DNA of 64,000 nt, from assembly GCF_036237275.1 (NCBI RefSeq), contig NZ_CP108352.1, positions 2,728,001 through 2,792,000 on the forward strand. Reading direction: 5' to 3'. This document shows, piece after piece, positions 59,902 through 64,000 of this stretch; position 1 is the first letter of the stretch; each line of letters opens with the position of its first letter. Both the position numbers and the translations under genes were made by a program. The notes beneath the pieces were generated by a model. It did no database searches. It had not been told where the DNA came from and was given only the letters and a program-made list of their open reading frames with translations. The stretch is from Streptomyces sp. NBC_01353 (GTDB taxonomy: Bacteria; Actinomycetota; Actinomycetes; Streptomycetales; Streptomycetaceae).

Positions 59902-61245
59902 TCAGGGCAGCGCTCCCAGCGGCACGGTGTAGGGCGAGCCCTGGTTGACGGCGGTCGGTTCGCAGGCGCCGGTGGCCGCGTAGCGGGCGGCGATCGCGGC
60001 CAGCTCGGCGGCGGGGATCACCTCGTGGATGTCGGTGAACCCGTGCGGGGCCCGCTGGTACGCCAGATCGATGACGACCTCGGGGCCGAGCCGCCGGTTG
60101 GCGAGCTGGAGTGCGGTGGTGGCGGGTCTGCGGTCGCGCTCGTACGCGGCGAGGGCCTCCGCCGGGTCACGATGGAGCGCGAGGGCGTGGGCGAGGGCCC
60201 GGGCGTCGACGACGGACTGGGTGGCTCCGTTGGACCCGATCGGGTACATCGCGTGGGCCGCGTCGCCGATCAGGGTGGTACGGCCGTGGCTCCACCGGTC
60301 GAGGGGCTCGCGGTCGACCATCGGGTACTCATGGGCGGCGTCGGCGGCCCTCAGCACCTCCGGCACGCTGACGCCGTCGAACTCCCACCCCTCGTAGTGG
60401 TGCAGGAACGTTTCTACAGGGATGGGGCGGTTCCAGTCCCCCCGATACTCCTCGTCCGCGGCGTCGGCGGGCCGGGCGAGCGCCCAGTTCACCAGGACGT
60501 CGCTGCCCGCCCGGCGCACCGGGTAGACCACGGCCTTCTGCCGGTCGTCGCCCGCGATGAACATGAACGAGCCGACGGCGCGGGCCGGCATCCGCGAGAC
60601 GCCGCGCCACACGAGCTGCCCGTTCCAGGGCGGGCTGCCCTCGCCGGGGTTCAGCGCGGCCCTGACGGCGGAGCGGATGCCGTCCGCGCCGACGAGCACA
60701 TCGGGTTCCAGGGAGGCCCGGCCGCGCCGGGCGCCGTCGCGGTGCTCCAACTGGACACGGGGCCGGCCGTCGGGCAGCGGCTCCACCCGGGTGACCCGGA
60801 CCCCGGTGACCAGGGCGGCCGCGCCGAGCCGTTCCCGTACCGCGTCGGCGAGGACCTGCTGGAGATGGGCGCGGTGGATCGAGAGCTGGGGCCAGCGGTA
60901 CCCGGCGCCGAGCCCCCGCGGCTCACGGGAGATCAGGCCGCCGGAGCGGTGGTAGTAGCGCAGTTCGCGGGTGCGCAGGGCACCGGCTTCGAGGCGCGGG
61001 AGCAGCCCGAGCGCGTCGAGCTCACGGACGGCGGGCGGCAGGAGGTTGAGGCCGGCGCCTGCGCACCGGTTCTCCCTGGCGGACTCGACGACGGTCACAC
61101 GGTCGAATCCGGCGGCGTGCAGGGCGAGGGCGCTGGTGAGCCCGGCGATACCGCCTCCGGCGACGACGACGTGCAGAAGCCCACCGCCGGGCAGACCGCG
61201 CCCACCGTCCGGGAGGGAGGGCTCGTACGGGGTGCCGTGGGCCAT
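59902..61245 (-). CDS. FAD-dependent monooxygenase, PhzS-like
   Basis: A 447-residue PHBH-fold flavoprotein: FAD dinucleotide motif VVAGGGIAGL (residues 30-35 Gly-x-Gly-x-x-Gly), the second motif DVLVGADGIRSAVR, and LIGDAAHAMYPIGSNGATQSVVDA. It resembles the phenazine hydroxylase PhzS along its length (ELRYYHRSGG, EPRG...YPQ/WPQLSIHR, HEYPMVDREPL). It should hydroxylate, perhaps with decarboxylation, an aromatic acid using NAD(P)H and O2. ATG at 61245 has GGGAGGG 4-5 bases upstream. It starts 11 bp after the PrnB-like gene, in one operon. Confidence 0.88.
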   Translation of the reverse strand: MAHGTPYEPSLPDGGRGLPGGGLLHVVVAGGGIAGLTSALALHAAGFDRVTVVESARENRCAGAGLNLLPPAVRELDALGLLPRLEAGALRTRELRYYHRSGGLISREPRGLGAGYRWPQLSIHRAHLQQVLADAVRERLGAAALVTGVRVTRVEPLPDGRPRVQLEHRDGARRGRASLEPDVLVGADGIRSAVRAALNPGEGSPPWNGQLVWRGVSRMPARAVGSFMFIAGDDRQKAVVYPVRRAGSDVLVNWALARPADAADEEYRGDWNRPIPVETFLHHYEGWEFDGVSVPEVLRAADAAHEYPMVDREPLDRWSHGRTTLIGDAAHAMYPIGSNGATQSVVDARALAHALALHRDPAEALAAYERDRRPATTALQLANRRLGPEVVIDLAYQRAPHGFTDIHEVIPAAELAAIAARYAATGACEPTAVNQGSPYTVPLGALP

Positions 61246-61256
61246 CGGGCCCTCCC

Positions 61257-62567
61257 TCAACACGACGATCCGCCGGAACGGGGGCCGCTCGCGCGACCGG
61301 AACGATCTCCGTCCGAGCGGTCCGAGCGGTCCGAGCGGTCCGAGCGGTCCGAGCGGTCCGAGCGGTCCGAGCGGTCCGAGCGGCTGAGAGTCGCGCAGTC
61401 CGAGCGGGTTCCGGTCGCATGGCGCGCCATCGTCTCGTTGTCCCGGGTCAGGTCGAGGATCGAACGCAGCAGGGTGATCGGGGCGCCGCCGCTCCCCTCG
61501 TCGTAGAGCCGCAGGTCGTCCGCGTACGCCTTGCGGGCGACGCCCAGGTGGCGGGCGCGGAAGGTCTTGAGGATGCGGAGCACCCGGCCGAGCGCTTGTG
61601 CGGAGGCGGCCAGTTGCGGGGGCAGCCGCTCGACGTTCTCCCAGCTGATGGCCGCGGAAAGCTTGCTGACGGCGGAGACACCGCCCGCATGCCGGGCGTG
61701 GAAGTCCCGCCAGGACGGCAGGCTGTAATGGATGGAGCCGGCGAGGAACGCGTCGTAGACCGGGTTCGAGCGGTCGCACTGCCAGAGCGTCAGATCGACC
61801 AGCCAGAGCGGGACCTGGGCCGCGGCGGGGCCGAGGTAGTCACGTCCCGCGACGTCGACCTCCTCGAAGTAGGGGCGCAGGGTGAGCGCGAAGAACTCCG
61901 GGCTGACATGGGTGACCGTGTGGTCGATGGAGTCGACCATCGACCGGAGGTGCTGGCCGATGCGGTCGAGGGCGCAGGCGAAGCCGGGGTCGTACGGTTC
62001 GAGCCGGGCGAGCCGGGAGCAGGTGTCGAGGGCGGCGACGAGTCCGGGGAACACCATCCGGACGGCTTCCTGGAGATGGGCCTCCATGGGGTGGCCGGTG
62101 TACATCCGCCGGCGGGGGCCGGACGGGTTCCAGGTCGTGTAGTGGTGCACGGTGTCGCGGGGCACCATGTCGGTGCGGCGGCCCAGGAGTTCGAGGACCG
62201 GGAGGACTTCGGGGACGGCGGCCACGGGCTGGAGGCCGTGACGTTTGAGCGAGCCGAGCAGGATGCCGAGGTCGCGCATCGCGGCGAGCGCGTCGATCAC
62301 GCTCCACTCGGCGGCCAGGTCGGGGTCGGGGACGAGGGTGCGCAGGGCGACCGTGAGCGCGGGCGCGTCGGCGTCGGCGTTCATCGCGGGCAACGCGGCG
62401 AGGACGGCGTCGGCGCCGAGCGGGTCGGCGGCGCATATGTCGGCTAAGCAGTAGCGAGGGTCGCCGCGTTCCTCGAGTCGGGGCGCGACAAGGTCGTACA
62501 GGGCCAACGGAATGCCCCTTCCGGTCGGGGGCTCGCTCACCTCCGGGGCGCGCGTCGACGGGCGCAC
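61257..62567 (-). CDS. PrnB-like haem enzyme (monodechloroaminopyrrolnitrin synthase family)
   Basis: A 436-residue protein matching PrnB, which rearranges (chloro)tryptophan to an arylpyrrole and has the indoleamine 2,3-dioxygenase fold. Shared segments include AAMRDLGILLGSLKRHG, WNPSGP, YTGHPMEAHLQEAVR, RPYFEEVDVAGRDYLGP and FRARHLGVARKAY, whose His340 is the likely haem ligand. The usual end is near residue 390; then a tail of about 46 residues is mostly repeated Ser-Asp-Arg. The GTG at 62567 or a TTG 20 codons on (with GGAAGGGG 7 bases upstream) may be the start. It lies between the exporter and monooxygenase genes. Confidence 0.83.
   Translation of the reverse strand: MRPSTRAPEVSEPPTGRGIPLALYDLVAPRLEERGDPRYCLADICAADPLGADAVLAALPAMNADADAPALTVALRTLVPDPDLAAEWSVIDALAAMRDLGILLGSLKRHGLQPVAAVPEVLPVLELLGRRTDMVPRDTVHHYTTWNPSGPRRRMYTGHPMEAHLQEAVRMVFPGLVAALDTCSRLARLEPYDPGFACALDRIGQHLRSMVDSIDHTVTHVSPEFFALTLRPYFEEVDVAGRDYLGPAAAQVPLWLVDLTLWQCDRSNPVYDAFLAGSIHYSLPSWRDFHARHAGGVSAVSKLSAAISWENVERLPPQLAASAQALGRVLRILKTFRARHLGVARKAYADDLRLYDEGSGGAPITLLRSILDLTRDNETMARHATGTRSDCATLSRSDRSDRSDRSDRSDRSDRSDRSDGDRSGRASGPRSGGSSC
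61311..61383. repeat. 9-bp tandem repeat, about 8 copies, inside the PrnB-like gene
   Basis: GTCCGAGCG is repeated eight times without a mismatch. Read on the minus strand it encodes Ser-Asp-Arg repeats in the C-terminal tail. As 9 is a multiple of three, gain or loss of copies would not change the frame. Confidence 0.95.
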
Positions 62568-62599
62568 TCCCCTTCGGCTCGCTCGCCGGGGTTACGTGG

Positions 62600-64000
62600 T
62601 CACCGTGGTTCGGCCACTCGCCCGCGGCGTGGCGGCGCCGGGGTGGGCATGGGCAGGCGCAAGCGTACGGAGATCAACGTGGCGACGGCGGCGAAAGCCC
62701 CTCCGACGAGCAGAGCGGCCTGGAAGCCGTCGGTCTGGGCGGCCGCGGTGGCTGATTCGGTACGGGTGGTGGCGACGGCCACGAGGACGGCGAGGCCGAG
62801 GACGGAGCCGAACTGCTGGCTCGTGTTGACCAACCCGGAGGCGAGTCCGGCCTCTTCGGGGGCGGCCTCGGCCGTGGCGGCCACGTTCGTGGTGACCATG
62901 ACGAGCGGCAGGGCGGCGCCCAGGAGGAGGCTCGGGGCGAGGACGGTGGTGAGGAAGCCGCCGTCGGGGGTGAGCGCGAGGGCCAGCCAGATCGTGCCGG
63001 CGCACAGCAGCGCGAAGCCGAGGGTCATGGTCCGGGTCAGTCCGAGCCGGAAGATGAGCCGGCCGGTCTGCGGGGCGACGGCGACGACCACGAGGGAGAG
63101 GGGCAGCAGGCCAAGACCGCCGCCGAGGGGTGTGTACCCGAGGACGCTCTGCAGATGGACGCTGACCAGGAAGAACATCGGGAACAGCGTCATCTGGGCG
63201 AGGGCGCTGAGGACGTTGGCGCGCCGGAGGGCGGGCCTTCGGAGGACGGCCGGCGGGACGAGCGGCTCCGGCGTGCGCGTCTCGACGACGGCGAAGGCGG
63301 CGAGGAGGGCGAGCCCGCCGGCTCCGGCGGTCAAGGTCGTCGGGGACAGCCACCCGGTCTCGGCGGCGCCGACGAGCGCGTAGGCGACGAGCCCCAGGCC
63401 GCCGGTGCCGGTGAGTGCCCCGGCGAGGTCGAAGCGGCTGCCGCCCTTGGTGTCGCGGGCCCCTTCGAGCACCCGGAGGGCCTGGGCGCCCAGGAGCACG
63501 GCGGCGAGGACGTTGAGCCACAGCGTGGACCGCCATCCGAGGAGATCGGTGAGGACTCCGCCGAGTACGGTCCCGAGGACCCCGCCGAGGCCCCCCATCG
63601 CGGCGAACGCCCCGAGCGCCTTGTGTCGGGCGGGCCCGTCGGGGAAGAGGACGAGCAGCAGCGCGAATGCGGCGGCCGCGGCGAGCGCGGCACCGACGCC
63701 CTGGGCGGCGCGGGCCGCGACCAGTACACCCGGTCCGGGCGCGAGGGCCCCGACGGCGGAGGCGACCGCGAGCAGCCCGAGCCCGGCGAGGAACACCCGC
63801 CGATGCCCGAGCAGGTCGGCGACCCGCCCTCCGAGCAGCAACAGCCCCCCGAAGGTGATCAGATACGCGTTCGCCACCCAGGACAGCCCGGCGGCTCCGG
63901 CGCCGAGGTCGGCGCCGATGGAGGGCAGGGCGACGTTGACGACGGCGGTGTCGAGAATGAGCAGCAGCTGCGTGGCGGCGAGCAGCGTGAGAGCGCCACG
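62600..64000 (-). CDS. MFS exporter (DHA2 family), start outside the window
   Basis: At least 466 residues of a 14-helix MFS exporter. Visible are LLLILDTAVVNVALPSIGADL (first helix and motif D1), GGRVADLLGHRRVFLAG (motif A) and repeated hydrophobic helices to the end. The start codon lies beyond 64000. It ends 32 bp before the PrnB-like gene on the same strand and is probably the first gene of that operon in the window. It may export the product of the two enzymes. Confidence 0.9.
   Translation of the reverse strand, partial: RGALTLLAATQLLLILDTAVVNVALPSIGADLGAGAAGLSWVANAYLITFGGLLLLGGRVADLLGHRRVFLAGLGLLAVASAVGALAPGPGVLVAARAAQGVGAALAAAAAFALLLVLFPDGPARHKALGAFAAMGGLGGVLGTVLGGVLTDLLGWRSTLWLNVLAAVLLGAQALRVLEGARDTKGGSRFDLAGALTGTGGLGLVAYALVGAAETGWLSPTTLTAGAGGLALLAAFAVVETRTPEPLVPPAVLRRPALRRANVLSALAQMTLFPMFFLVSVHLQSVLGYTPLGGGLGLLPLSLVVVAVAPQTGRLIFRLGLTRTMTLGFALLCAGTIWLALALTPDGGFLTTVLAPSLLLGAALPLVMVTTNVAATAEAAPEEAGLASGLVNTSQQFGSVLGLAVLVAVATTRTESATAAAQTDGFQAALLVGGAFAAVATLISVRLRLPMPTPAPPRRGRVAEPR

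Follow-up and report, generated by a model that had tools for sequence, protein, structure and literature searches.

Which product could be made by genes that recall both the pyrrolnitrin and the pyocyanin pathways, set side by side next to glgP in a Streptomyces genome? The far end of a 64,000-nucleotide stretch of Streptomyces sp. NBC_01353 (henceforth 'the window'; G000:C1:2728001-2792000, in a genome, G000, of 8.57 Mb) raises this question, as it carries genes for a PhzS-like monooxygenase, a PrnB-type haem enzyme and an MFS exporter. A first-pass annotation had read them as a compact three-gene operon, possibly inserted beside glgP, that could make a small aromatic compound, perhaps derived from tryptophan. 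Here we report that they make up the distal end of a conserved set of six genes, placed between glgP and glgE. The probable role of this set is to convert tryptophan, by means of a pyrrolnitrin-type haem enzyme and with no chlorination step, into an oxygenated aromatic compound that is exported.

The window genes are part of a conserved six-gene set

The coordinates of the three minus-strand genes and the gaps between them (32 bp from MFS to PrnB, 11 bp from PrnB to PhzS) were confirmed, and all three family assignments score above the Pfam cut-off. The PhzS-like flavin adenine dinucleotide (FAD) monooxygenase (59902..61245, minus strand; 447 aa; FAD_binding_3 8.4e-22) starts at an ATG at 61245 with GGAGG ahead of it; the PrnB-type haem enzyme (61257..62567, minus strand; Pfam PrnB 3.3e-36) has 436 aa, or ~390 aa without a repeat tail; and the DHA2-like MFS exporter (62600..64000, minus strand; MFS_1 3.5e-42) runs beyond the window end. 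Reading past position 64000, as the first-pass annotation had advised in order to see further biosynthetic genes, revealed an HpaB-type monooxygenase gene (L006:5019-6482, minus strand, where L006 position + 58999 = window position; PF11794 3.2e-74, PF03241 1.2e-51), upstream of it a gene for an AraC regulator with a Cupin_6 domain (L006:6622-7599, minus strand) and, beyond AraC, a divergent NmrA-family gene (L006:7716-8657, plus strand). Just past the set lies glgE (L006:8936-11014, plus strand), followed in the same genome by treS, maltokinase and glgB genes. The three genes of the proposed operon thus stand, its extent does not, and the AraC gene overturns the statement that no regulator is present: the HpaB-type, MFS, PrnB and PhzS genes form one run, accompanied by AraC and by the divergent NmrA gene. 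The HpaB stop shares bases with an ATG (TGATG), and this ATG, at window-equivalent base 64018, is probably where the MFS gene starts.

Searching 392 Streptomyces genomes with PF08933 gave 49 matches in 48 genomes, which by neighbourhood comprise 32 loci of the window type, four of a second version, three with PrnB and PhzS only, one lone relative (L102), eight remote relatives elsewhere and one SO4414-like protein. The last (L069 in G383; 319 bits on PF08933) was rejected as a true PrnB, as it is of the SO4414/1zee type. The six-gene set is common to 32 of the 392 genomes, with all six genes present in 28 of the 32 loci (at least 60% identity; L019 and L022 counted despite broken frames). PrnB and PhzS genes, which had been required to occur together in related genomes if the idea was to survive, do so in all 32, the PhzS gene being split into two pieces in L019. 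Chance neighbours were rejected as an explanation in view of the 32 loci that share the set and of the four others in which it is rearranged. In a tree of 46 of the 49 PrnB matches (all but L022, L069 and L071) and two references, with long branches flagged, full support was obtained for a single branch each of second-version, two-gene and the eight remote proteins. Within the window's PrnB branch, PrnB has a PhzS-like neighbour in 39 of 40 copies (the tree holds 38 of the 40), and around three of these 39 pairs none of the other four genes is matched. Among 29 genera, Streptomyces alone was positive for PF08933; in a draw of 396 genomes from the phylum it occurred only in the window's genome and one other; and a scan of named genomes, in part identical with those already counted, yielded 19 loci, all in Streptomyces.

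Two observations on single strains concern the make-up of the set. At ~9700-12500 of L088 the MFS gene and all but a piece of the HpaB gene are gone and PrnB and PhzS stay, which hints at which genes form the core. In L104 (9699-12257, plus strand), the PrnB frame runs on into that of PhzS without a stop; we do not claim a fusion protein, as an internal ribosome-site-like GGAG and an ATG are retained.

In related species the set occupies the same place on the chromosome. glgP lies in the stretch of 31 of the 32 window-type loci (the exception is L077) and glgE in that of 28 (the stretches of L076, L089 and L096 stop short of it, and L020 has none); at least one of the two accompanies every locus. 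For comparison, 12 genomes without PF08933 were searched with GlgE, of which 11 matched, and ten stretches were fetched from nine of them: a divergent glgP lay within 0.7 kb of glgE in four of the ten, within 5 kb in three more and nowhere in the stretch in three. The suggestion of an insertion beside glgP therefore holds in that the genes interrupt a glgP-glgE neighbourhood. A recent insertion into one strain was rejected, since 32 of the 392 genomes carry the set and its divergence follows that of glgE (pairwise r 0.79-0.93 for the six genes and 0.84 for glgP itself; computed over 21 of the 32 loci, each of the remaining 11 having a gene or neighbour that is lacking in the stretch, broken, fused or shortened in extraction). 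The six genes are under purifying selection, with ratios of non-synonymous to synonymous substitution rates (dN/dS) of 0.15-0.41 against the orthologue locus L099 and of 0.05-0.43 over the three pairs tested, in which PrnB gave 0.25-0.41, PhzS 0.24-0.27 and glgE 0.07-0.14. The 30 loci that have AraC, HpaB and NmrA share strongly conserved blocks in two regions, one upstream of HpaB (around GGTTCTTAAGGA and GGACGTTCATTG) and the other in the NmrA-AraC interval (around GTTCAATTAACAAACCGGGGCGG), most columns being alike in at least 80% of rows; L096 has ~2 kb extra between AraC and HpaB.

A PrnB-type haem enzyme in a set that has no halogenase

The product of 61257-62567, for which the lack of a PrnB match had been named as grounds for abandoning the idea, scores 125.3 bits on PF08933 (curated cut-off 27), and its predicted fold is that of PrnB. 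The proximal haem ligand H340 and the carboxylate-binding loop serine S359 are both conserved in 30 of the 32 window-type rows (the other two are L022, with its broken frame, and L071, whose row was shortened in extraction) and in all four second-version rows. Tyr143 is likewise kept and corresponds to Tyr104, a pocket residue of FbPrnB according to passages of PMC11791213. After ~residue 390 the open reading frame ends in an SDRSDR... tail, encoded by an in-frame 9-bp tandem repeat of 8.1 identical copies (61311..61383, minus strand). This repeat is absent from all other PrnB tails listed for comparison and is perhaps a fresh minisatellite within the coding end.

The first-pass annotation had noted that no halogenase is present and that the product is not pyrrolnitrin, and this was borne out. 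None of the six genes encodes a tryptophan halogenase partner of the PrnA or PrnC kind, and no full-length tryptophan halogenase was found in G000, where 64 of 84 first-look candidates were scored and matches covered at most 94 of 458 positions. Across 12 carriers, with part of the first-look candidates scored, six had fragmentary matches only and six had longer ones. A Rieske domain, as expected of the N-oxygenase PrnD, is absent from the six genes, the rest of the genome not having been searched for it. With no halogenase in the set, and none of full length found among the candidates scored in G000, pyrrolnitrin is rejected as the product of the six-gene set alone.

A second version of the set carries its own tryptophan supply

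In the four second-version loci (L090, L092, L098 and L103), HpaB, MFS, NmrA, PrnB and PhzS genes lie together away from glgP-glgE. Their products are 54-63% identical to the window proteins, the figure for AraC being 49-50%. NmrA comes after the MFS gene on the same strand here, which also speaks for its belonging to the unit. The second version has an extra FAD_binding_3 monooxygenase, and three of its loci (L090, L092 and L103) have a gene called as a stand-alone ketosynthase. All four stretches hold an additional trpC (for indole-3-glycerol-phosphate synthase) and an additional trpD. Moreover, genes for a TrpG-type glutamine amidotransferase and a TrpE-type chorismate-binding protein adjoin L092; L090 has homologues of the two and L098 of TrpE only, and a DAHP synthase gene adjoins L090. 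The presence of tryptophan-supply genes within the cluster is a strong argument for tryptophan use by the second-version PrnB. By homology, tryptophan would, with strong likelihood, also be the substrate of the window's PrnB, and the early guess of a tryptophan-derived aromatic gains backing from the additional trpC and trpD.

Next to the second-version AraC of L090, a single protein (L090:3-1505, minus strand) combines indoleamine 2,3-dioxygenase and cytochrome b5 domains, perhaps as a haem dioxygenase fused to its own electron donor; no homologue was seen in the stretches of L092, L098 and L103.

Proposed pathway and alternative explanations

We consider a specialised-metabolite cluster under AraC control to be the best explanation of these results, although we hold its full form with belief and doubt in equal parts. 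The PrnB-type enzyme would bind unchlorinated L-tryptophan and rearrange it to a product of the 3-(2-aminophenyl)pyrrole type, as membership of the PrnB family suggests. Two monooxygenases would add oxygen next, the PhzS-like one with FAD and the HpaB-type one in dependence on FADH2. The NmrA-type protein may reduce an intermediate with NAD(P)H, the MFS protein would export the final product, and AraC would regulate the whole set; the order of these steps is likewise putative. PrnB activity has been observed in vivo, including in Corynebacterium glutamicum, as a putative product mass and as the end product aminopyrrolnitrin (passages of PMC11112847), whereas passages of PMC11791213 state that its authors did not achieve activity in vitro and leave the mechanism open.

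Several observations weigh against this pathway. Among orthologues of the HpaB-type protein, Phe occupies the site of the catalytic His (His142 in Thermus thermophilus HpaB) in 35 of 36 rows (one gap), so the step may differ from phenol hydroxylation. None of the six genes encodes a flavin reductase to serve this protein. A search of NCBIfam profiles named no family for the window PrnB, and in each of the four glgP-type genomes compared, trpC and full-length trpD occur only once, with no additional copy. Nor is the set intact everywhere: the frame of PrnB is broken in L022 and that of PhzS in L019, L020 lacks AraC and NmrA (as does L089, whose contig stops there), the MFS gene is missing in two of the 32 loci (L071 and L088) and the named strain L055 has no PhzS, so neither MFS nor PhzS is indispensable everywhere. 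Finally, PrnB-family enzymes may perform other oxidations, a Paenibacillus homologue being suspected of indole hydroxylation in passages of PMC13036774.

The likeliest alternative is that the PrnB-like enzyme is a tryptophan mono-oxygenase, forming a hydroxy- or oxindole product as other haem aromatic oxygenases with a histidine ligand do, and that the cluster makes an oxygenated indole in place of an arylpyrrole. Identity to characterised PrnB is just 31-36%, haem-dependent tryptophan hydroxylases such as BifE exist (passages of PMC13285481), MarE, which passages of PMC11791213 place in the same superfamily, yields a 2-oxindole, and tryptophan is the predicted substrate of the Paenibacillus homologue (passages of PMC13036774). 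We nevertheless regard an oxygenated indole as unlikely. A different aromatic amino acid as substrate, resembling tyrosine or phenylalanine, is improbable too. Genes for a type II chorismate mutase and a class III aminotransferase do flank that of the L102 protein, which is 44% identical to the window's PrnB; however, L102 has no PhzS, HpaB, MFS, AraC or NmrA match, its PrnB groups with the two-gene version on another branch, and the nearer second version carries trpC and trpD. That the cluster degrades or detoxifies a soil aromatic is very improbable: AraC, HpaB, FAD_binding_3 proteins and exporters are common in aromatic catabolism too, but no ring-cleavage gene is among the six and the tryptophan-supply genes of the second version favour biosynthesis.

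The more distant PrnB relatives have surroundings of their own. In L102 (7938-10941, minus strand), the PrnB relative set between the chorismate mutase and aminotransferase genes perhaps serves another aromatic substrate. The eight remote PrnB-like proteins (L026, L074 and L080-L085; 29-35% identical to the window's) have neighbours that make up another conserved gene set, those of L026 including a GHMP kinase, a pyridoxal-phosphate-dependent decarboxylase and an amine oxidase, with homologues in several of the other remote loci.

Returning to the arylpyrrole pathway, we tentatively suggest, as a possibility still open to considerable doubt, a halogen-free phenylpyrrole branch in Streptomyces in which PrnB and the PhzS-type enzyme act as one unit, the HpaB-type enzyme, having lost its phenol-binding His, performs another oxidation, and the products are undescribed oxygenated aminophenylpyrroles. 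Within such a unit the flavoprotein may oxidise the new aminophenylpyrrole or even supply the activation of PrnB. No described cluster with the PrnB and PhzS pair was found among the matches listed in the open-licence PubMed Central literature. These natural PrnB clusters, with their constant flavoprotein, a second version supplied with tryptophan and a two-gene version of PrnB and PhzS, are test systems for the PrnB mechanism and hint at a class of Streptomyces metabolites that may be undescribed. Usual cluster finders may overlook the window's set, as it has no polyketide, peptide or halogenase genes.

Comparison with known systems

The HpaB-type protein resembles two-component aromatic monooxygenases, sharing both Pfam domains (PF11794 and PF03241) and 250 bits with 4oo2. 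It falls far below both HpaB equivalog cut-offs (272.5 against 885.2 bits and 261.3 against 480.2 bits) and has Phe at the site of the catalytic His of 4-hydroxyphenylacetate 3-hydroxylase. Of the other residues with roles in HpaB, the Arg is conserved in 35 of 36 orthologues and the Tyr partner varies (Tyr in 30 of 36). The MFS protein scores 191 bits on TIGR00711, under the cut-off of 230.2.

The PhzS-like protein belongs to the subfamily NF005720/PRK07538 of NCBIfam (486.5 bits, cut-off 400). Among solved structures it comes closest to 2rgj/3c96 (E 6.6e-83), those of PhzS, although their files state a flavin-containing monooxygenase only. Similarity to PhzS, the Pseudomonas aeruginosa flavin hydroxylase of pyocyanin synthesis, spans residues 25-386 and includes the FAD-binding and GD-type motifs. 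Unlike PhzS proper, the window protein has neighbours of the PrnB and HpaB types and a phenazine substrate is not implied; phenazine core genes are absent from the six genes, no phz search of the genome having been made.

The PrnB-type enzyme is far nearer to PrnB than to indoleamine 2,3-dioxygenase (~13-16% identity). With monodechloroaminopyrrolnitrin synthase, the PrnB (PF08933) of Pseudomonas, Burkholderia and Serratia, it shares the fold, the proximal His, the loop Ser and many substrate-side residues, at an identity to the characterised enzymes of 31-36% across ~345 residues. In its pocket Tyr143 it resembles FbPrnB, whereas P. fluorescens PrnB has Val117. It also differs from the known PrnB in its neighbourhood: with no halogenase-type gene beside it, the window gene adjoins genes of the PhzS and HpaB types.
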